A DNA stretch of 64,000 nucleotides from Yoonia tamlensis (lineage in GTDB: Bacteria > Pseudomonadota > Alphaproteobacteria > Rhodobacterales > Rhodobacteraceae). A program made the translations under genes and the position numbers. Position 1 is the stretch's first letter. Each line of letters opens with the position of its first letter. The notes under the pieces were generated by a model. It had not been told where the DNA came from. It made no database searches and saw nothing but the letters and a program-made list of their open reading frames with translations. The stretch covers positions 956,097 through 1,020,096 of the forward strand of contig NZ_FOYP01000001.1 of NCBI RefSeq assembly GCF_900115105.1, given 5' to 3'. This document shows, in pieces, positions 3,275-43,501 of this stretch.

Positions 3275-4240
3275 ATGAAAACCGACCAGCCAAAAATTGC
3301 CCGCGATTGGCACCGTGCCGGGCGCGGGGTTGCGTTGGTGACGGTTGTTCAAACATGGGGCTCCGCGCCGCGCCCAGTCGGCAGCCAGATGGTGGTTGAT
3401 GCGGCGGGGGCGATCGAAGGGTCGGTCTCGGGGGGCTGTGTCGAAGGTGCGGTGATCGTCGAAAGCATCGATGCAATCGCCGACGGCAAACCGCGCGTTC
3501 TGACCTTCGGGGTCAGCGACGATGATGCCTTTGCCGTGGGGCTGGCCTGTGGCGGTGAAATCAGGGTTCTGATCGAACCTGTTGGCACCGCAATCCCGAT
3601 CGCGCTGTTGGACCAGCTTGTCAGATTGCGCGACCGCGCCGAACCTGTCGCCTATGTGACCGACCTTGAAACGGGCGGGCCTGCCCTGTTCGGCCCGCCG
3701 GAGTTTGCAGAGCGCTTCAGGCGCGACCAATCGGGTGTCGAACAAGACGGCCGCCGGTTTATCGCAATTCACAACGCCCCGCTGCGCATGGTGATTATTG
3801 GCGCGGTGCATATTGCGCAGTATTTGGTCGGCTTGGCGCGCGACTGCGGTTATTCACCGATTGTGATTGATCCGCGCAGCGCGTTTGCCAGCGCCGCACG
3901 TTTTCCCGCAACAACCTTGCTGGATGAATGGCCGGATGCCGCCTTGCGCGGGCTTCATCTTGACAGGCGCACTGCCGTTGTGACCCTGTCGCATGATCCC
4001 AAAATTGATGATCCGGCTTTGATTGCAGCCTTGCAAAGCGATGTCTTTTATATCGGCGCGCTTGGATCAAAACGCACCCATGCAAAACGTGTCGCTCGGC
4101 TGGCGCAAGGCGGGTTCACGGGCGCTGAAATTGACAGGATTCACGGGCCTGTCGGGCTTGATCTGGGGGGGCGCCACCCCGCCGAGATTGCCATAAGTAT
4201 CATGGCGCAAATCACGCAGGTCTTGCGCAAGCAGACCTGA
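3275..4240 (+). CDS. XdhC/CoxF-family molybdoenzyme maturation protein
   Basis: A 321-residue protein of the XdhC family. These proteins bind molybdenum cofactor, promote its sulfuration and insert it into xanthine dehydrogenase or CO-dehydrogenase-type hydroxylases. The N-terminal XdhC/CoxI part has [13 protein letters not shown] and [11 protein letters not shown] (residues about 25-60). The C-terminal half is a Rossmann-like domain starting at [11 protein letters not shown] near residue 172, followed by [10 protein letters not shown] and a Gly-rich end ([13 protein letters not shown]). It is followed in the same direction by coxS and coxM. The large molybdopterin subunit it would normally serve is not next to it. 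Confidence 0.88.
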
Positions 4241-4314
4241 TATCCCGCAAGTTTTGGGTTCTCAAACAGTGGCGCGCATGGTTAACATGCAAGACCATTC
4301 CCGCAGAGGCGCAG

Positions 4315-4800
4315 ATGACACAGATTTCGATGATCGTGAACGGTGACAAGGTGACAGATGATGTTGCCGACCAGCTGTTGCTGGTTGAGTTCCTGCGCAA
4401 CAATCTGGGTCTGACGGGCACCCATGTTGGCTGCGATACATCGCAATGCGGGGCTTGCGTGGTGCATGTGGACGGGCAGCTGGTGAAATCTTGCGCGATG
4501 TTTGCTGTCGAAGCCGCGGATGCACAAGTTGCAACAATCGAAGGACAGGCCGCGCCGGACGGCACTTTGAACGCAATCCAGCAGGCGTTCCAGACCCATC
4601 ACGGGCTACAATGCGGCTTTTGCACACCAGGGATGGTGATGGCGGCAGCCGCGCTTTTGCACGAGGTGCCAAAACCGACCGAATCCCAGATACGCACCTA
4701 TCTTGAGGGAAATTTTTGCCGCTGCACAGGCTATCAGAACATCGTCAAAGCCGTTTTCGCGGCCTCTGGCCAAGATGTTAACCTGATTGCGGGGCAATAG
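4315..4800 (+). CDS. coxS: CO-dehydrogenase/hydroxylase [2Fe-2S] small subunit
   Basis: A 161-residue iron-sulfur subunit of the xanthine oxidase family that passes electrons from the molybdenum centre to FAD. The plant-type [2Fe-2S] site is visible at [15 protein letters not shown] followed by a cysteine 12 residues on (about residues 42-62). The C-terminal [2Fe-2S] domain has CGFCTPGM and CRCTGY (about residues 101-138). GAGG five bases before the ATG gives a good start. The coxM gene begins eight bases after its stop. In this family the large subunit gene is usually part of the same operon but is missing here. The true substrate cannot be known without the large subunit. Confidence 0.92.
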
Positions 4801-4808
4801 GGGGCACG

Positions 4809-5594
4809 ATGTATCCTTTTGAAATCAAAAAACCTTTGAGTGTTGATGATGCTGTTGCCGCGCTCGGGGATGAAGAGGCGCAGCCATTGGCAGGTGGTCA
4901 GACGCTTATCCCGACGCTCAAGGCGCGGCTTGCCATGCCGCAGGTGCTTGTTTCGCTTTCGCGGATTGCGGAATTACAAGAGATTGAGGTTGCGAACGGG
5001 CAGCTTCTGGTCGGGGCGGGTGTGACCCATGCGGATTTGTCGAAACAGACAGGCAGCTATCCGGCGCTGGCGGATCTGGCTGCACATATCGGGGATCCGG
5101 CCGTGCGCAATCGCGGAACCGTTGGCGGATCAATCGCAAATAATGATCCGTCCGCGTGCTATCCTGCTGCGGTTTTGGCTTCGGGGGCGACGATTGTCAC
5201 CAATTTGCGCAGGATTGCGGCGGACGATTATTTCTGCGGTATGTTCGAAACCGCGCTCGGGCAGGGCGAACTGATTACCGGCCTGCGTTTTCCGGTCCCG
5301 CTTGCAGCGCACTATGAAAAGTTTGTGCAGCCGGCATCGCGGTTCGCGCTTGTCGGTGTGTTTGTGGCGCGGTTTGCGCAAGACGTGCGCGTTGCTGTGA
5401 CCGGCGCATCCGAAGAAGGCGTGTTTCGCTGGCGTGAAGCCGAGGCCGCGCTGGCTGACGCATTTTCACCGGATGCTTTGGCGGGGTTGACTGTTTCCGC
5501 TGCGGGCATGATCGATGATATGCACGCAAGCCCCGCGTACCGCGCAGGGCTTGTCGCGACGCTGACAAAACGCGCCGTGATCGCAGCGGGTTAA
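4809..5594 (+). CDS. coxM: CO-dehydrogenase/hydroxylase FAD-binding medium subunit
   Basis: A 261-residue flavoprotein subunit. The FAD pyrophosphate-binding motif AGGQTLIPTLKARLA is near residues 28-42, and the second motif TVGGSIANNDPSACYPAA is near residues 103-120. The C-terminal domain is slightly shorter than in typical CoxM proteins of about 285 residues but looks intact. A GGGGGCACG ribosome site precedes the ATG. It is the last gene of the xdhC-coxS-coxM unit and is followed by a hairpin shared with infC. As coxL is absent, CoxM may act with a large subunit encoded elsewhere or be a relic. Confidence 0.9.
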   Translation: MYPFEIKKPLSVDDAVAALGDEEAQPLAGGQTLIPTLKARLAMPQVLVSLSRIAELQEIEVANGQLLVGAGVTHADLSKQTGSYPALADLAAHIGDPAVRNRGTVGGSIANNDPSACYPAAVLASGATIVTNLRRIAADDYFCGMFETALGQGELITGLRFPVPLAAHYEKFVQPASRFALVGVFVARFAQDVRVAVTGASEEGVFRWREAEAALADAFSPDALAGLTVSAAGMIDDMHASPAYRAGLVATLTKRAVIAAG

Positions 5595-5604
5595 CCAAAG
5601 CAAA

Positions 5605-5629
5605 ACGCGCGCCCTGACAGGACGCGCGT
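5605..5629 (-). terminator. Hairpin terminator for infC, between convergent genes
   Basis: ACGCGCG (5605-5611) pairs with CGCGCGT (5623-5629), and CCTG/CAGG extends the stem inside. On the minus strand the stem is followed by TTTTGCTTT, so it fits the end of the infC transcript best. It may also stop coxM transcription weakly. Confidence 0.65.
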
Positions 5630-5651
5630 AATTCTGGCGCAAGTTTTCTGC

Positions 5652-6197
5652 TTACTTGGGCAGTGGTCCGATCAGCATCACCATTTGACGACCTTCCATT
5701 TTCGGAAAGTTTTCAACGCGGCCTGTCTCTTTGGTGTCTTCGGCAACACGTTCAAGCAGCTTGCGCCCCAATTCCTGGTGCGCCATTTCGCGGCCACGGA
5801 AACGCAGTGTGATTTTTACTTTGTCGCCGTTTTCAAGGAACTTGAACACGTTGCGCATTTTCACATCGTAATCATTGTTATCCGTGTTGGGACGGAATTT
5901 GATTTCCTTGATTTCGATGATCTTTTGCTTCTTACGGGCCTCAGCTTCTTTTTTCTGGGTCTCGTATTTGAATTTGCCATAGTCCATGATCTTGCAAACC
6001 GGCGGCGTCGCATTTGGCGAAATTTCTACCAGGTCAAGCCCGGCTTCCTCTGCCATTGCCATGGCGCGCTGTGGGGTAACAACGCCCACGTTTTCGCCCT
6101 CCGCCCCGATAAGGCGGATTTCGCTTGCGCGAATGCGGTCGTTGATCCGTGGCCCCGTTTCACGTTGAGGAGGGGCATTATGCGGTCTGCGTGCTAT
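5652..6197 (-). CDS. infC: Translation initiation factor IF-3, probable AUA start
   Basis: IF-3 binds the 30S subunit and checks start-codon pairing. Typical IF-3 sequence is clear ([40 protein letters not shown], ending [10 protein letters not shown]). No in-frame ATG exists upstream of the conserved N-terminal domain, and the frame is closed by TAA just above. The only start that gives the family's normal N-terminus ([12 protein letters not shown]) and length (181 residues) is ATA at 6195-6197, with AAAGGA about eight bases upstream. Rare start codons in infC are known to give autoregulation, because IF-3 rejects non-canonical starts. Calling the internal GTG at 6087-6089 would delete part of the N-terminal domain. 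Confidence 0.93.
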
Positions 6198-6387
6198 GGT
6201 CTTTATCCTTTAATTGTTCCGTATAGGTGATACGCAAAGTAAACTGTGACGCGGCGGTCTTCAACCCGCAAAACCATGTCGCCCGCATAGATAATCTGCT
6301 TGTTTTTGCTTCACCTTAAGTGCGCCTTCTGACATATCGTCGTTAAGAGCCGCTTGGTTCGTCAATTTGATCTGAAAGGATAATAGA

Positions 6388-7131
6388 ATGAGAGCAATCG
6401 CAATCTTGGTCATCGTGGCCGTGCTTGGCTTTTTTGGCTATCAATATGCAGCGAACGGGCGTGGCCCAAGTGCCGCGATTGGTGTTCTGACCGGCGCAAC
6501 CGCCGCTGCCGAAGCTGCTGCTGCTGAAGCCGAAGCTACTGCTGCCGCAGAAGCCGAAGCCGCTGCTGCCGCTGAAGCCGAAGCTGCTGCTGCCGCTGAA
6601 GCCGAAGCTGCTGCTGCCGCAGAAGCCGAAGCCGCTGCTGCCGCTGAAGCCGAAGCTGCTGCTGCCGCTGAAGCCGAAGCTGCTGCTGCCGCAGAAGCCG
6701 AAGCCGCTGCTGCCGCAGAAGCCGAAGCCGCTGCTGCCGCCGAAGCAGAAGCCGCTGCTGCCACAGAAGCCGAAGCCGCTGCTGCCGCTGAAGCCGAAGC
6801 CGCTGCTGCCGCTGAAGCCGAAGCCGCTGCTGCCACAGAAGCCGAAGCCGCTGCTGCCGCTGAAGCCGAGGCTGCTGCCGCCGCAGAAGCTGAAGCTGCT
6901 GCCGCCGCAGAAGCCGAAGCCGCTGCCGCCGAAACTGCAGAAGAAACAACAGTTGCAGATCTTTTGACAACTGACGGCTTTGATGCCGACAAGGTTATGG
7001 AACTGGTTGAAGGGTCTGATCTGTCTGTAATCCAGAAAACCACCATCACCACTGCATTGGAAGCTGCAAAAGAAAATCCGGAGCTTCTCGAAGCCGCGCT
7101 TGAACAGCTTAAGGGTATGTTGGGCATGTAA
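6388..7131 (+). CDS. Membrane-anchored Ala/Glu octapeptide-repeat protein
   Basis: A 247-residue protein of unknown function. Residues 3-22 form one hydrophobic segment (signal anchor). Residues 47-181 are a low-complexity array of the octapeptide EAEAAAAA, 16 full copies plus one of seven residues, with Thr replacing Ala in three places. This should form a long, very helical, acidic rod. The last 65 residues are a normal-looking helical domain (DKVMELVEGSDLSVIQ, ENPELLEAALEQLKGMLGM). AAGGATAATAG precedes the ATG. A strong terminator follows. It could be a periplasmic spacer or tether, but that is only inferred from composition. Confidence 0.75.
   Translation: MRAIAILVIVAVLGFFGYQYAANGRGPSAAIGVLTGATAAAEAAAAEAEATAAAEAEAAAAAEAEAAAAAEAEAAAAAEAEAAAAAEAEAAAAAEAEAAAAAEAEAAAAAEAEAAAAAEAEAAAATEAEAAAAAEAEAAAAAEAEAAAATEAEAAAAAEAEAAAAAEAEAAAAAEAEAAAAETAEETTVADLLTTDGFDADKVMELVEGSDLSVIQKTTITTALEAAKENPELLEAALEQLKGMLGM
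6526..6930 (+). repeat. 24-bp tandem repeat (minisatellite) inside a CDS
   Basis: Sixteen 24-bp units run from 6526 to 6909 and a 21-bp unit follows to 6930. Each unit encodes EAEAAAAA with small codon variation (GCT/GCC/GCA and GAA/GAG). Unit length is a multiple of three, so copy-number change keeps the frame. Runs of identical neighbouring units point to recent slippage or unequal exchange. Confidence 0.9.
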
Positions 7132-22348: not shown

Positions 22349-22711
22349 ATGGTGAATGTCCTTGGCATAGGCGGCGTATTTTTTCGCGCGAAAGATCCGG
22401 CTGCGTTGGCGGACTGGTATCAAACGCATCTGGGTATCGCGCCCGCGCCAACATCGGCAGAGGCTGCGCCTTGGGTCACTGAAACAGGCGTGACCGTATT
22501 TTCACCCTTTGCCGCTGATACCGACTATTTCCCGAGCGATAAGGCGTTTATGTTCAATTTCCGCGTCGCCGATCTTGACGCTGCCTGTGCAGAGCTTGCG
22601 GCGGCGGGGGTCACCTGTGGCGATGTGCTGGCAATGGACGGGGTCGGGCGCTTTGCGCGTATCCACGACCCCGAAGGCAACCCGATCGAGCTGTGGGAAC
22701 CAGCAACCTAG
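22349..22711 (+). CDS. Glyoxalase/bleomycin-resistance (VOC) family protein
   Basis: A 120-residue single VOC module. It has the opening strand GIGGVFFRAKDPAALADWYQTHLGI, the middle VTVFSPFAADTDYF and the closing metal-site segment RFARIHDPEGNPIELWEP with the usual Glu. The reaction cannot be named: VOC proteins include lyases, dioxygenases and resistance proteins. AAGGA at 22336-22340 fits the ATG at 22349. It ends in CTAG, which it shares with the stop of the convergent YHYH gene. Confidence 0.9.
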   Translation: MVNVLGIGGVFFRAKDPAALADWYQTHLGIAPAPTSAEAAPWVTETGVTVFSPFAADTDYFPSDKAFMFNFRVADLDAACAELAAAGVTCGDVLAMDGVGRFARIHDPEGNPIELWEPAT

Positions 22712-23679
22712 GGCCGCGGCGGACGCGCAGACGCATCGCAGGTCTGGTCAGGGTTCTCGGATGCGCAGCCGGTTTCGGCCTTGAGGCATGACAGGATCGC
22801 GTTCGAGCCGGCTTCGCCCGCGTGATAGTGATACCCGCCCGCGTCTACGTGGCCGTTGCAGCTATCAAGATCAGCGGGCGCTGTGCCATCAAGCAACAAG
22901 CGGGCGTAGATGTCATAGCCGTCCATCGCAATGCCGATCCGTACTGCGTCAGACCCTGCGTCTTGCGTGCCTTTGATACAGTCGGTTGCCACGTGGTAGT
23001 GATAGCCGACATGGGTGTTTACATGGCCACCGCAATCGTCAAACGGGGCAATCGTATGGGCGGCAAGGATCGCGTCAACCGGCGCAGCCGCATCAAGCCG
23101 CACGCCGTTGCTTGCAATACCGGCGCCCGAAACATTCGTCCGGTTGCTGCGCGCGCTATCTTGCGGCACGAGCGGGATCACATAGGTCATGCTTGCATTG
23201 GCATCCATATATTCGGGCAGGCATTGCACACAGTAGTTCTGGTATTCGGGCGCAACATCGGGGCGGGCTGCGGCCTCGCAGGATTCTTTGGTATCCGTGA
23301 CACGCACAGCACCTGACGCGCTGTCAAACAATTGCCAGATGTCATCCCCGTATAGCGCGGCCAGACCGGCGATAAATGCGCCGTCCACATCATGCACTTC
23401 GCCGTCTTTCAACCAGATGCCGCCAGCATCTGCGGTATCATCGACCGATGAGGGGCACCATGGACCCGGGGTATAGTCTTGGGGTTCGGGTTTGACCGTG
23501 ATCGAAAAACAGCTGGTTTGCGTACCGCCCGACAAGGTGCAGTCAACCAGCGAAGGCCCGCTGATCACCGTAGCGTTTGCAAAAAAACCTGCGATGTCGC
23601 GCAGCCGGTCTGTATTGGCATCAGCAAACGCGGGGCTACAGTACATAGCCAAAGCGGGAAGGGCGAAAGAATAGCGCAT
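22708..23679 (-). CDS. Secreted YHYH-domain protein
   Basis: A protein of about 323 residues from the ATG at 23677-23679; a start five codons upstream is possible. It has a signal peptide (RYSFALPALAMYCSPAFA). Two copies of the YHYH signature occur, VGYHYHVA and GGYHYHAG, each near a conserved Asp/Cys-rich segment (FDDCGGHVNTH, LDSCNGHVDA). The many cysteines suggest disulfides and a periplasmic or secreted location. The YHYH family has no established activity, and metal binding by the histidines is only a guess. No related gene is adjacent. Confidence 0.85.
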   Translation of the reverse strand: MRYSFALPALAMYCSPAFADANTDRLRDIAGFFANATVISGPSLVDCTLSGGTQTSCFSITVKPEPQDYTPGPWCPSSVDDTADAGGIWLKDGEVHDVDGAFIAGLAALYGDDIWQLFDSASGAVRVTDTKESCEAAARPDVAPEYQNYCVQCLPEYMDANASMTYVIPLVPQDSARSNRTNVSGAGIASNGVRLDAAAPVDAILAAHTIAPFDDCGGHVNTHVGYHYHVATDCIKGTQDAGSDAVRIGIAMDGYDIYARLLLDGTAPADLDSCNGHVDAGGYHYHAGEAGSNAILSCLKAETGCASENPDQTCDASARPPRP

Positions 23680-23772
23680 ATTCGGTCCGATCATTAGAAC
23701 TGCACGGCAAAAGCCGGCTCAGGTCTTATACGGGCGGACCAGCGTTTTCCGCCGCACCTTGAGATCAGTTTT

Positions 23773-24636: not shown

Positions 24637-25002
24637 CTAGGGTTTGGCGAAAAGCGTTTCGTCAAATTTGATCGATTCGCCGCATCCGCAGGCATCAACC
24701 ACATTTGGGTTGCGGAATTTGAAACCGGATTCGAGCAATGAGGTTTCATAGTCGATTTCGGTGCCAAACAAGAACATCTGCGCCATCGGTGCAATCATTA
24801 CACGTGCGCCGTCGATCTCGACAACCTCATCTAGCGGGTCGACCTCGGTGACATAGTCCATCGTGTATTCCATGCCCGCACAGCCGCCTTTTTTGACGCC
24901 GATCCGCAGGCCCTGATGGCCGTCTTTTTGCATCAGCGCTGCAATTTTTGCAGCCGCTTTTGGGGTGACGCTTACCGCTTGTTTGCCCGGAATGCTGAAC
25001 AT
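24637..25002 (-). CDS. HesB/IscA/SufA-type iron-sulfur carrier
   Basis: A 121-residue A-type carrier that holds and transfers Fe-S clusters or iron. The three conserved cysteines are at KKGGCAGMEY and ACGCGES. The SVTPKAAAKIAALM start and the FKFRNPNVVDACGCGESI end are typical of SufA. It lies a short way downstream of the DUF3307/SatD-like unit and not far from a SufT-like gene, so a second piece of the SUF pathway is close by. A SUF operon itself is not in the window. Confidence 0.93.
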   Translation of the reverse strand: MFSIPGKQAVSVTPKAAAKIAALMQKDGHQGLRIGVKKGGCAGMEYTMDYVTEVDPLDEVVEIDGARVMIAPMAQMFLFGTEIDYETSLLESGFKFRNPNVVDACGCGESIKFDETLFAKP

Positions 25003-25025: not shown

Positions 25026-25763
25026 TTAGTTGCTGCGGGGCATGATCTCAAGAAGGGGCGCGCCGTTTAACCCGTTGTTGATCGCAAGGATCAGCAAAGA
25101 CACCGCGATTGCCCAGCAAAACGACGCCAACGTGCCGATGATCACATATTCGGCTTTTGCGTTGTTGGATGCCGCATCAAAGCGCAAAATGGACTTTGCC
25201 GCGATCAAGAATCCGATACCTGCGGGCAGCCCTGCGATAAACATCAGATAGATCAGCCCGCGTTCAAGTTGCCCGATCATCATGCCGCCTGCGGGCAGGC
25301 TGTCGCTTGGGGCGCCCGCTGCATAAGGGCCCATCAATTTGCCCACGGCAAAACCGCCAGCGCGGGTGGCATAGATCGCACCGGCAGCCAGCAACATGCA
25401 TTCCGGTGCCCAAGCGGTTGTTTGCATTGCCCAAATGCCATTATGCCAAAGCGCAGGGGCAAACCCCGCGACAGCGGCCAGTGTTACAAGATGCGCGCCC
25501 TGATCGGCCAGATAGGCCATAATCGTGTCACTGCGATATTTGATCCACAGCGATTTTGCCAGATCAACGATCAGGTGCAACCCAGCCAGGATCGCTATCC
25601 ACCAGTCAAACGATCCCAGTGCAATGATAGCCGTCAGATAGACAATCCCGATATGGGTCAAAAGCGTCAGTGGCCGGTCTTTGGTTGCGACCATCTTTTC
25701 GGTTTGCAGCACATAATCTGCAAGGACATGTGCAAAAAACAATGCGGCAAGTGTTTCAAACAT
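25026..25763 (-). CDS. DUF3307 integral membrane protein
   Basis: A 245-residue protein with about six hydrophobic segments. The N-terminal DUF3307 core is FAHVLADYVLQTEKMVATKDR...LLTHIGIVYLT...HLIVDLAKSLWIKYR, where His, Asp and Asp residues line the first three helices (LADYVLQ, HIGIVY, HLIVDL). The family is uncharacterised. Its ATG shares a base with the SatD-like stop (25763), so the two are translated together. From memory DUF3307 and SatD-family genes also pair in other phyla, which suggests a conserved functional link. It might sense or transport a ligand whose state reaches the cytosolic partner; this is inference. Confidence 0.85.
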   Translation of the reverse strand: MFETLAALFFAHVLADYVLQTEKMVATKDRPLTLLTHIGIVYLTAIIALGSFDWWIAILAGLHLIVDLAKSLWIKYRSDTIMAYLADQGAHLVTLAAVAGFAPALWHNGIWAMQTTAWAPECMLLAAGAIYATRAGGFAVGKLMGPYAAGAPSDSLPAGGMMIGQLERGLIYLMFIAGLPAGIGFLIAAKSILRFDAASNNAKAEYVIIGTLASFCWAIAVSLLILAINNGLNGAPLLEIMPRSN

Positions 25764-26404
25764 CAGTCAAAATCGCCTTCCAATAGGCTCAGGGCCGATA
25801 TGATCGCGTCAAAACCCGCAGCGTTTAATGATTTTGTCACGGCTTGGCGTGACTTTCCCAGATTTTGGGCAATTTCGGTAAATGAAACAGTATCGTTTGG
25901 TATGATTTTTTGCAGTATGGTTGCTGCCTGCGCCTGCGTCCAGCCCTGCGAGATATGGTCGGCAAGGATCGCCGCTGCGCCTACGCCACCCTTGTCCGCG
26001 TGGCCTATGGCTTGCCCTGTTTTTGTCGCCTTGAGAAAATCAAGCAATTGCCCCGAGGCAATAAATGCCGCGCTGTTTTCGACGTTCAGATCATCCGACA
26101 AACGCGCGGGCCGCGGACCGGTTGCAATTGCGACATAGCTGTCGAAATCCGCACTTTGCGCGCGCAATGCCGCGCGAAATCCAAGCGCGGACCGCAAGGC
26201 ATATTCCGGTTTGGCCAAGACAACCTGCCATCCATCGCCACGGTGGCGCGTGAACCGCAGCGGGGCACCGAACCATTCCCCCTGCATTTCGGCGCAATGC
26301 CCCAAAGCAGCCAGCGCGTCCGCAAGACGATCCTGTCCAAGCGCGGTCGAGCCGATAATGTCACCTGTTAATACAGCGATTTGGGTTTGGTTACCTGTTG
26401 TCAT
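25763..26404 (-). CDS. SatD-like regulator: cyclase-like domain plus HTH
   Basis: A 213-residue protein. The start IAVLTGDIIGSTAL and the later RHRGDGWQVVLAK resemble the metal-binding DI-G-S/T and GDG motifs of class III nucleotidyl cyclases. Residues about 165-200 form a helix-turn-helix (VSFTEIAQNLGKSRQAVTKSLNAAG). This arrangement fits the SatD family, whose members are annotated as regulators of unknown ligand. There is no ribosome site before the ATG; instead a -10-like TATATT ends six bases upstream, so the mRNA may be leaderless. Three phased palindromes cover the promoter and are probably its own operator. DUF3307 is translationally coupled downstream. Confidence 0.68.
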   Translation of the reverse strand: MTTGNQTQIAVLTGDIIGSTALGQDRLADALAALGHCAEMQGEWFGAPLRFTRHRGDGWQVVLAKPEYALRSALGFRAALRAQSADFDSYVAIATGPRPARLSDDLNVENSAAFIASGQLLDFLKATKTGQAIGHADKGGVGAAAILADHISQGWTQAQAATILQKIIPNDTVSFTEIAQNLGKSRQAVTKSLNAAGFDAIISALSLLEGDFD

Positions 26405-26482
26405 GCACCCAATATAGGGTGCATTTGTGAATTCGCAACCATTTTAGGTTGCTTATTGTGATTTGCAACCTATTTAGGGTGC
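26405..26482 (-). promoter_or_regulatory. Three 30-bp-phased palindromic operators over a promoter
   Basis: Three 18-bp palindromes of the form GC[A]ACC-N6-GGTTGC or GCACCC-N6-GGGTGC lie at 26405-26422, 26435-26452 and 26465-26482. Their starts are exactly 30 bp apart and their 6-bp centres are AT-only. On the minus strand TTGCGA (26438-26433) and TATATT (26416-26411) form a -35/-10 pair with 16-bp spacing. This places the transcript start at about 26404, the A of the SatD-like ATG. Site 1 covers the -10, site 2 overlaps the -35 and site 3 is upstream. Confidence 0.75.
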
Positions 26483-26487
26483 GTTGG

Positions 26488-26850
26488 CTACATGAACCCG
26501 AGTTCAAGCCGCGCTTCGTCGGACATCATTTCCATGCCCCACTGCGGCTCGAATGTCATTGCGACGTCCACATGTTTGACACCCGGCAGCGGTTCAACCG
26601 CATCGGCAACCCAGCCCGGCATTTCGCCCGCCACCGGACAGCCCGGCGCGGTCAGCGTCATGGTGATATTCACCGCGTTATCGTCTTTGATATCAATTGT
26701 ATAAATCAAACCAAGATCAAAGATATTCACAGGAATTTCAGGATCAAAGACGGACCGGCACGCCTGCACGATGTCCTCGTAAAGCGGATGATCGGTTGTA
26801 GATGGCGCAATCAGTGGCGCGCCTTCAAGCGGGGCTGTTGTGTCGGTCAT
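26488..26850 (-). CDS. sufT: SufT/MIP18-family (DUF59) Fe-S assembly factor
   Basis: A 120-residue DUF59 protein. The core is DIVQACRSVFDPEIPVNIFDLGLIYTIDI and MTLTAPGCPVAGEMP with the conserved Cys. DUF59 proteins such as SufT help mature Fe-S clusters. AAGGAA before the ATG at 26850 decides the start; an upstream in-frame start would add an unlikely 56 residues. Its stop is only six bases before the operator array of the SatD-like gene, so read-through into that unit is possible. Divergent from tgt. Confidence 0.9.
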   Translation of the reverse strand: MTDTTAPLEGAPLIAPSTTDHPLYEDIVQACRSVFDPEIPVNIFDLGLIYTIDIKDDNAVNITMTLTAPGCPVAGEMPGWVADAVEPLPGVKHVDVAMTFEPQWGMEMMSDEARLELGFM

Positions 26851-43318: not shown

Positions 43319-43395
43319 GCGGTTGTAGCTCAGCTGGTTAGAGTACCGGCCTGTCACGCCGGGGGTCGCGGGTTCGAGCCCCGTCAACCGCGCCA
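43319..43395 (+). tRNA. tRNA-Asp (anticodon GTC), copy 1
   Basis: A 77-nt tRNA with encoded CCA. The acceptor stem is GCGGTTG/CAACCGC, the anticodon stem is CCGGC/GCCGG with loop CTGTCAC (GTC at 43353-43355), and the T loop is TTCGAGC. The second copy 106 bp downstream is identical. Confidence 0.97.
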
Positions 43396-43424
43396 CTACT
43401 TTGTTCTGTGATTTGATCTGATGC

Positions 43425-43501
43425 GCGGTTGTAGCTCAGCTGGTTAGAGTACCGGCCTGTCACGCCGGGGGTCGCGGGTTCGAGCCCCGTCAACCGCGCC
43501 A
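43425..43501 (+). tRNA. tRNA-Asp (anticodon GTC), copy 2
   Basis: Identical to copy 1 over the whole tRNA and a few flanking bases. The repeated unit is 84 bp, 43314-43397 and 43420-43503. Tandem duplication of tRNA-Asp raises dosage; the two are probably co-transcribed. Confidence 0.97.

Follow-up and report, generated by a model that had tools for sequence, protein, structure and literature searches.

A predicted autoregulated module of a SatD-like protein and a membrane protein, found in bacteria and archaea

Between two iron-sulfur (Fe-S) genes of Yoonia tamlensis lie two overlapping genes, one for a protein that joins a cyclase-like domain to a helix-turn-helix (HTH) and one for a membrane protein. 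The question raised by this locus is what the two products do for each other. The window analyzed here is a stretch of 64,000 nucleotides to which all coordinates refer, and the genes concerned are the following:

26488..26850, minus strand: flanking gene, Fe-S assembly protein (SufT-like), Pfam PF01883
25763..26404, minus strand: open reading frame (ORF) of the SatD-like protein, 213 aa, with a cyclase-fold N-terminal domain and a C-terminal HTH
25026..25763, minus strand: membrane protein, 245 aa, with an N-terminal DUF3307 domain and a C-terminal SatD-partner domain
24637..25002, minus strand: flanking gene, Fe-S biosynthesis protein (IscA/HesB-like), Pfam PF01521

The two ORFs have one base in common (TGATG, the satD-like stop and the membrane-gene start). 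An earlier note on this DNA had described this adjoining pair and the cyclase-like motifs of the 213-aa protein, and both descriptions hold, with TGDIIGST at residues 13-20 and HRGDGWQVV at residues 54-62. Elsewhere in the window, a YHYH-domain protein is encoded at 22711-23694 on the minus strand (PF14240, E 4.7e-15), and two tandem tRNA-Asp(gtc) genes with 29 bp between them lie at 43319-43501 on the plus strand. As argued below from comparative data, the satD-like and membrane-protein genes are predicted to form an autoregulated two-gene module that occurs in bacteria and archaea, on chromosomes and on mobile DNA.

The N-terminal half of the SatD-like protein carries these features:

26000..26383, minus strand: class III nucleotidyl-cyclase-like domain, residues 8-135, from AlphaFold2, Foldseek and profiles
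26360-26362, minus strand: metal aspartate D15, invariant in 64/64 relatives
26234-26236, minus strand: metal aspartate D57, invariant in 64/64 relatives

The AlphaFold2 model (pLDDT 95.6, from an alignment of 64 sequences) has a beta-alpha-beta-beta-alpha-beta core and, after it, a helical HTH region. Its top Foldseek matches in the PDB were class III adenylyl cyclases, namely 4wpa (Ma1120; E 1.6e-4, prob 1.00, TM 0.44 by query and 0.56 by target) and 1ybu (Rv1900c; E 4.7e-4, prob 1.00), with GGDEF domains and a cUMP synthase among the lower-ranked matches (E 0.0037 and 0.0074). A profile built from SatD-like relatives found Ma1120 among PDB sequences (E 8.5e-4) and, via the HTH, MarR-type zinc regulators (E 0.0012), while a single hhalign comparison with 27 class III cyclases of the same bacterial family gave prob 95 and E 4e-8. 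A lack of structural match to the cyclase fold had been named beforehand as a refutation of the cyclase assignment; AlphaFold2, Foldseek and hhalign matched the fold. In one genome of the family (G005), the class III cyclase family PF00211 was matched 30 times.

Conservation of the active site divides the word "cyclase" in two. The fold and both metal aspartates stand, the metal-aspartate motifs being nearly always kept across the SatD-like sets, but the catalytic residues do not. The K..GD lysine occurs in 0/64 family members, 61 of which have R..GD instead by motif search. Class III cyclases use a catalytic Asn/Arg motif, VNxAxR; by regular expression, a VNxA(A/S)R-type motif was present in 1/64 sequences in each of two overlapping family sets and in 0/27 distant relatives, an absence that rests on motif search because the local profile alignment stops at residue 114. 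The filtered cyclases of the same bacterial family have K..GD in 20/27 and the VNxA(A/S)R-type motif in 19/27, in a set chosen by a filter that itself used such motifs (the 27 were kept from 30 loci for having two of three cyclase-like motifs). Computation thus supports a class III cyclase fold with a metal site in the modeled protein; it does not support catalysis, and a cyclic nucleotide product is hypothetical.

The name SatD reaches the window protein indirectly. The Pfam SatD model PF16264 gave no match in the Yoonia genome even at E 10, which rules out direct membership. It matched 3/64 family members at E<=0.1 (best 0.004). Relatives from the phylum's other classes also reach the model, with one of them, L187 (E 3.2e-8), above its cut-off. 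Conversely, the SatD-like profile scored 54.6 and 52.3 bits against two archaeal proteins annotated as SatD, in a search of ten sequences. The window protein is therefore linked to the SatD family through intermediate relatives and the same partner domain.

Comparison across genomes disclosed how constant the pair is. A SatD-like gene was present in 65/295 sampled genomes of the family, and in 64 of these 65 loci a DUF3307 gene lies directly downstream, the exception (L068) ending at a contig edge. Among named loci from one genome scan (best 80 of 200, partly from the same genomes and so overlapping the first set), 79/80 were paired, and again the exception (L079) ends at a contig edge. The reverse dependence is weaker: DUF3307 was found in 119/295 of the same genomes, 56 of them without a SatD-like gene when the two lists were compared. 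Thirteen unpaired DUF3307 loci were examined, some from the phylum sample; five were of the long form and eight matched the long profile weakly. Many Rhodobacterales DUF3307 proteins without a SatD-like gene are short open frames of ~130-200 aa. In other classes of the phylum (299-genome sample), all of the long-form DUF3307 genes, 7/7, have a SatD-like gene directly upstream.

The pair also occurs beyond the phylum. In the plasmid loci, from Haloplanus, Halorientalis, Sphingomonas, Segatella, Vibrio, Salinivibrio, Enterobacter, Pseudomonas, Arthrobacter and E. coli (pEC34A), the upstream gene was SatD-like by profile in 10/10 annotated loci examined (20.7-179.1 bits), and the paired genes overlap or lie <=74 nt apart. 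The Haloplanus and Halorientalis pairs, annotated as SatD family and DUF3307, are near-identical to each other. A further pair was read from ORFs in a Fusobacterium record, and four viral-catalogue contigs contain one (three by profile, one by ORF reading); judged from translations, one of these contigs has a tyrosine-integrase-like ORF nearby and another ParA/ParB-like ORFs. A lack of conserved pairing with DUF3307 had likewise been set in advance as a refutation, and the family, phylum and plasmid counts above show the pairing conserved. On chromosomes its place is steady: in the Rhodobacterales loci (best 80 of 200), a sufT-like gene stands upstream in 60/80, an iscA-like gene downstream in 73/80, and both in 56/80.

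Which part of the membrane protein is the constant one was read from its domains:

25458..25751, minus strand: DUF3307 domain (PF11750), residues 5-102, E 1.8e-14, 54.3 bits against a cut-off of 23
25068..25301, minus strand: unnamed SatD-partner membrane domain, residues 155-232, from alignment
25182-25184, minus strand: R194, beside F195, flanking the loop between the last two helices
25149-25151, minus strand: E205, beside Y206, flanking the same loop

The AlphaFold2 model is helical (pLDDT 93.1) and had no known structural counterpart in the PDB, either by sequence or by fold at E 0.001. The C-terminal partner domain lies outside any Pfam family, and no Pfam domain beyond DUF3307 recurs in the partners. 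The partner comprises only 149, 138 or 90 aa in Natronosalvus, Sphingomonas parapaucimobilis and Agrobacterium, respectively, and these minimal proteins align with the C-terminal half of the window protein (IGxLER...AAKS..RF...EY..GTL.S). In the phylum sample, 4/4 PF16264 matches are followed by the partner domain, three of these ORFs lacking DUF3307 by eye, and 15/16 genomes with the partner domain have a SatD-like gene in the stretch examined, the 16th being an orphan. DUF3307 genes without SatD, and SatD with partners that lack DUF3307, rule out DUF3307 as the constant partner. From the minimal partners and the PF16264 loci, we conclude that the constant unit is SatD plus the C-terminal membrane domain, with DUF3307 as an optional N-terminal addition. 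The DUF3307 pairing proposed in the earlier note is accordingly right about a conserved membrane partner and needs revision as to which domain defines it.

Orphans point to the residues that may serve SatD. In paired proteins, R194 and E205 are each conserved in 69/69, F195 in 66/69 and Y206 in 64/69. In the five long DUF3307 proteins without a SatD-like neighbor (L190, L191, L193, L196 and L197), four of which stand after a sufT-like gene identified by reading, the counts fall to 0/5 for R194, F195 and Y206 and to 1/5 for E205. The same orphans keep K190, E167, R168 and the tested DUF3307 residues in 5/5; the conserved positions of that domain are H12, D16, Q20, H63, D67, D87, Q88 and H91. 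Erosion goes beyond RF...EY, since I163 is also lost (1/5 compared with 69/69 in paired proteins) and a few further positions are loosened. Since these orphans stand for no more than one or two losses, on long branches, the pattern strongly suggests, but does not prove, that the RF...EY loop serves SatD.

The other half of the SatD-like protein and the DNA upstream of its gene bear on regulation:

25769..25939, minus strand: HTH region, residues 156-212, from secondary structure of the model and operator co-variation
25829-25855, minus strand: recognition helix, residues 184-192, from the model and operator co-variation
26405..26422, unstranded: operator site 1, GCACCCAATATAGGGTGC, a palindrome that abuts the start codon and has a -10 element in its center
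26435..26452, unstranded: operator site 2, GCAACCATTTTAGGTTGC, a palindrome with a -35 element formed from one arm
26465..26482, unstranded: operator site 3, GCAACCTATTTAGGGTGC, a palindrome
26438-26411, minus strand: putative sigma-70-like promoter TTGCGA-16-TATATT, whose transcript would start at or next to the ATG
26468-26441, minus strand: second sigma-70-like promoter, TTGCAA-16-TAAAAT, on the operator array

The HTH noted earlier is clearer in the relatives and the AlphaFold2 model than in the protein's own Pfam scores: its matches are weak in the window protein (best E 0.012), and Sigma70_r4 matches the HTH in 15/64 relatives (best E 1.3e-5). The three predicted operators are 18-bp palindromes set 30 and 30 bp apart, start to start, and fill the satD-like promoter. 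Across the 3.19-Mb genome their pattern, GCAMCC-N6-GGKTGC, occurs at these three places only; its reversal, used as a control, is found once per strand. This locality predicts a regulator that acts on its own operon only. The two sigma-70-like promoters on the array compare with 0.4 expected from shuffles. The three-site operator that the earlier note placed on the gene's own promoter is thus borne out as a prediction, with palindromes unique in the genome and promoters overlapping them.

The layout recurs with different sequences. Searching for fixed 6-6-6 palindromes (half-site, spacer, half-site), we found arrays upstream of the satD-like gene scoring >=30 in 70/145 loci and in 0/622 control places of the same loci; at score 24 the counts were 73/145 and 3/622. 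About half of the loci score <30, with no chain of two sites in 20/145, and 62/622 controls have some chain. Of 25 remote loci, 15, three archaea among them, score >=15, all spaced 28-29 bp, compared with 0/241 controls, and six score <12; spacing overall is 28-31 bp. A search with mixed spacers, which gave at least three copies in 51/145 loci, 0/435 shuffles and 1/384 control places, was dropped in favor of the fixed form, as it picked unrelated palindromes in many loci. In three loci (L013, L017 and L068), a T-run comes after the first palindrome upstream of satD, and this palindrome may also serve as a transcription terminator for the preceding gene.

To the recurring layout is added co-variation with the protein, assessed where arrays are clear, in 69 distinct proteins including a truncated one. 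Among SatD columns, the highest mutual information fell in the recognition helix for half-site positions 1 (R186), 4 (A188) and 5 (K184), and outside it for the nearly invariant positions 2, 3 and 6 (L106, R53 and A160). K/R191 goes with C at position 5 in 69/69. In leave-one-out prediction, K191 was best for position 5 and A188 for position 4, while R186 tied with I151 for position 1. Operator switches are few: a tree built from the N-terminal domain shows two changes each for positions 5 and 1. Because paired palindromes recur with differing sequences, and because their half-sites vary in step with the recognition helix, the SatD-like protein very likely reads them. Loci of the GCANCC group have a gene-proximal site with a TATNNT-type center (each of its four fixed bases in 36-38/39 loci), and in 38/39 this site stops 0-3 nt short of the start codon. 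This center, together with TTGCGA-16-TATATT, indicates a promoter built into the operators, and the satD-like message is probably leaderless.

Neighborhoods and carriers suggest a second side to the module. The small mobilizable plasmid pEC34A (L237; 3,770 bp) has the SatD-like/DUF3307 pair as its main cargo, the only annotated one beside Rop, MobA and a 51-aa hypothetical protein; both genes are also present in six K. pneumoniae records, five of this length and one of 4,424 bp. Among the examined loci, a list without a control, SatD pairs adjoin Pycsar genes at one locus and, at others, Xre/MbcA- and RelE-type genes and DUF4365, and the Agrobacterium SatD with its minimal partner adjoins ParD, DUF4365 and HEPN genes. 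On an IMG/VR contig (L245), a TOTE conflict-system primase/helicase (3674-6574; PF22548, E 9.1e-98) directly follows the pair, and some pairs lie on prophage-like contigs. The Haloplanus, Halorientalis, Salinivibrio and Arthrobacter loci have no such defense-type neighbors. The pair gave no tblastn match in 50,697 INPHARED phage records, and that of pEC34A none in 20,395 E. coli genome records.

Computation strongly supports the pairing, the fold, the operator, its co-variation with the helix and the partner domain, and a mechanism can be proposed on this footing. The SatD-like protein, presumably as a dimer, would bind 18-bp palindromes lined up at intervals of 28-31 bp, which is roughly three turns of the helix and puts them on one DNA face. 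Since the palindromes contain the gene's own -35 and -10 elements, binding would shut the promoter. The N-terminal cyclase-fold domain most likely senses a nucleotide-metal ligand and does not make a canonical cyclic nucleotide, because the metal aspartates are kept and the canonical class III catalytic residues are not. We infer that the protein also touches the membrane protein directly, through the RF...EY loop in the C-terminal partner domain, and keeps it in check; were SatD or its ligand lost, the membrane effector would be both released and over-expressed. Our best explanation, to which we give about an even chance, is therefore an autoregulated SatD-like/membrane-protein module in which SatD restrains the membrane effector in the manner of an antitoxin or guard.

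Restraint of a harmful effector is suggested from outside the sequence. The available part of a transposon meta-analysis places only one accessory gene of S. pyogenes in the top quarter of essentiality, namely satD, which 178/249 genomes have, and speaks there of strain-dependent adaptation (PMC11323703). A gene that is absent in some genomes and yet cannot be lost looks like an antitoxin or the repressor of a toxic neighbor. Together with mobile carriage, this pushes towards restraint of a harmful effector, the last step being our inference. Against it stand the stable chromosomal place in Rhodobacterales, unlike that of a typical defense gene, and the orphan long DUF3307 proteins tolerated in five genomes.

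A rival explanation is a membrane-sequestered repressor, by analogy with PtsG and Mlc. Here the membrane protein would sense or move a substrate and pull the SatD-like repressor off the DNA, with no toxicity and no restraint, SatD tuning a transporter or membrane enzyme by regulating its own operon. The local operator and the chromosomal synteny agree with this explanation, the RF...EY loop, tied to the presence of SatD, would fit a docking site, and the invariant H, D and Q of the DUF3307 half, kept even in orphans, suggest that this half has its own function. Speaking against it are minimal partners of 90-149 aa without DUF3307, a tiny plasmid with the pair as nearly sole cargo and, in the part of the meta-analysis available, a satD gene essential yet accessory in S. 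pyogenes (PMC11323703). We regard it as a possible, though doubtful, explanation. The earlier note's proposal of membrane-to-DNA sensing survives as one of two live readings; mobile carriage and the published essentiality of satD point rather to antitoxin- or guard-like restraint.

It is unlikely that the SatD-like domain is a working nucleotide synthase that gates the membrane protein through its product, activating as in Pycsar or inhibiting as in Panoptes, with the HTH as a secondary autoregulatory module. The class III fold, the nearly always kept metal-aspartate motifs and the lower-ranked GGDEF and cUMP synthase matches are consistent with such a signaling pair, and a cyclase- or palm-fold protein beside a membrane effector is the layout of these systems in the available parts of their reports (PMC12657218, PMC12657230, PMC11224242). 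It is opposed by the missing K..GD lysine, an essentially absent VNxA(A/S)R-type motif, and a partner without a recurring Pfam domain beyond DUF3307 or a PDB fold match. A role in acid tolerance or secretion, from which SatD takes its name and for which the S. mutans sat cluster is described in the available parts of PMC12077213 and PMC11323703, is very improbable, as the neighbors here are Fe-S genes and not ffh, and the 2001 sat operon paper, by its title, credits Ffh.

Returning to antitoxin- or guard-like restraint, its widest form would be a guard or addiction system spread across bacteria and archaea, in which a nucleotide-reading cyclase-fold/HTH protein represses its own operon and directly restrains a small membrane effector via the RF...EY loop; we put this forward tentatively. 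If true, the effector would be released whenever SatD or its ligand is lost or is diverted, for instance by a phage, and the position of satD as a single accessory gene in the top S. pyogenes essentiality quarter would be explained. Restraint would also account, in a testable way, for a puzzling published finding, namely an accessory gene that is not disruptable in transposon screens. Further results are a predicted operator code, a partner domain that is new and as yet without a name, and predictions for single residues (K191, R186, D15/D57, R194 and E205). The pair seems undescribed in the open-license literature searched, where DUF3307 is named in one paper, within a jumbo-phage gene table, and "SatD family" in one, as an annotation of F. 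nucleatum.

Set beside known systems, the window protein shares with the SatD family PF16264 a cyclase-like N-terminal half with GD...GDxFQ motifs, a C-terminal HTH and a downstream partner membrane domain, but has RGDGWQ where the family has TGDEFQ and no match at E 10. With the class III cyclases Ma1120 and Rv1900c it has the fold and two metal aspartates in common, and differs in the R for K at K..GD, the lack of a VNxAxR-type motif and the fused HTH.

Two defense systems resemble the pair in layout. Pycsar, described in the available part of PMC11224242 as a pyrimidine cyclase with a cyclic-pyrimidine receptor, likewise places a class III-type cyclase fold beside a membrane effector (PycC and PycTM), whereas SatD has an HTH with a predicted operator and a non-canonical active site, and its membrane protein has no Pyc match. 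Panoptes (OptS/mCpol and OptE/2TM-beta) is also a two-gene operon of a palm-type fold and a membrane protein; the available parts of its reports describe a membrane effector of two helices and a palm-type synthase, growth being inhibited by the effector when the synthase does not work (PMC12657218, PMC12657230). OptE alone inhibits growth unless OptS is present, according to the available part of PMC12657218, which would match the essential-yet-accessory satD. It differs in that no HTH is mentioned for OptS in those parts, and both mCpol homology and a product are hypothetical for SatD. In the PADLOC defense library, the window pair had no Pyc match, its membrane protein no match at all and its regulator only weak matches over the HTH, and a search for SatD or its partner likewise gave nothing beyond weak HTH matches; that library dates from 2023 and the Panoptes papers from 2025.

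Type II toxin-antitoxin systems combine overlapping genes, a DNA-binding first gene, palindromic operators over the promoter and mobile carriage. The SatD module resembles them in these features, with its bicistronic operon, DNA-binding first gene and predicted autoregulatory operator, but SatD is a large cyclase-fold regulator, its partner is an integral membrane protein, and toxicity is hypothetical. We file the SatD module as a variant of the autoregulated restrainer-effector kind and as a member of none of the systems compared here.
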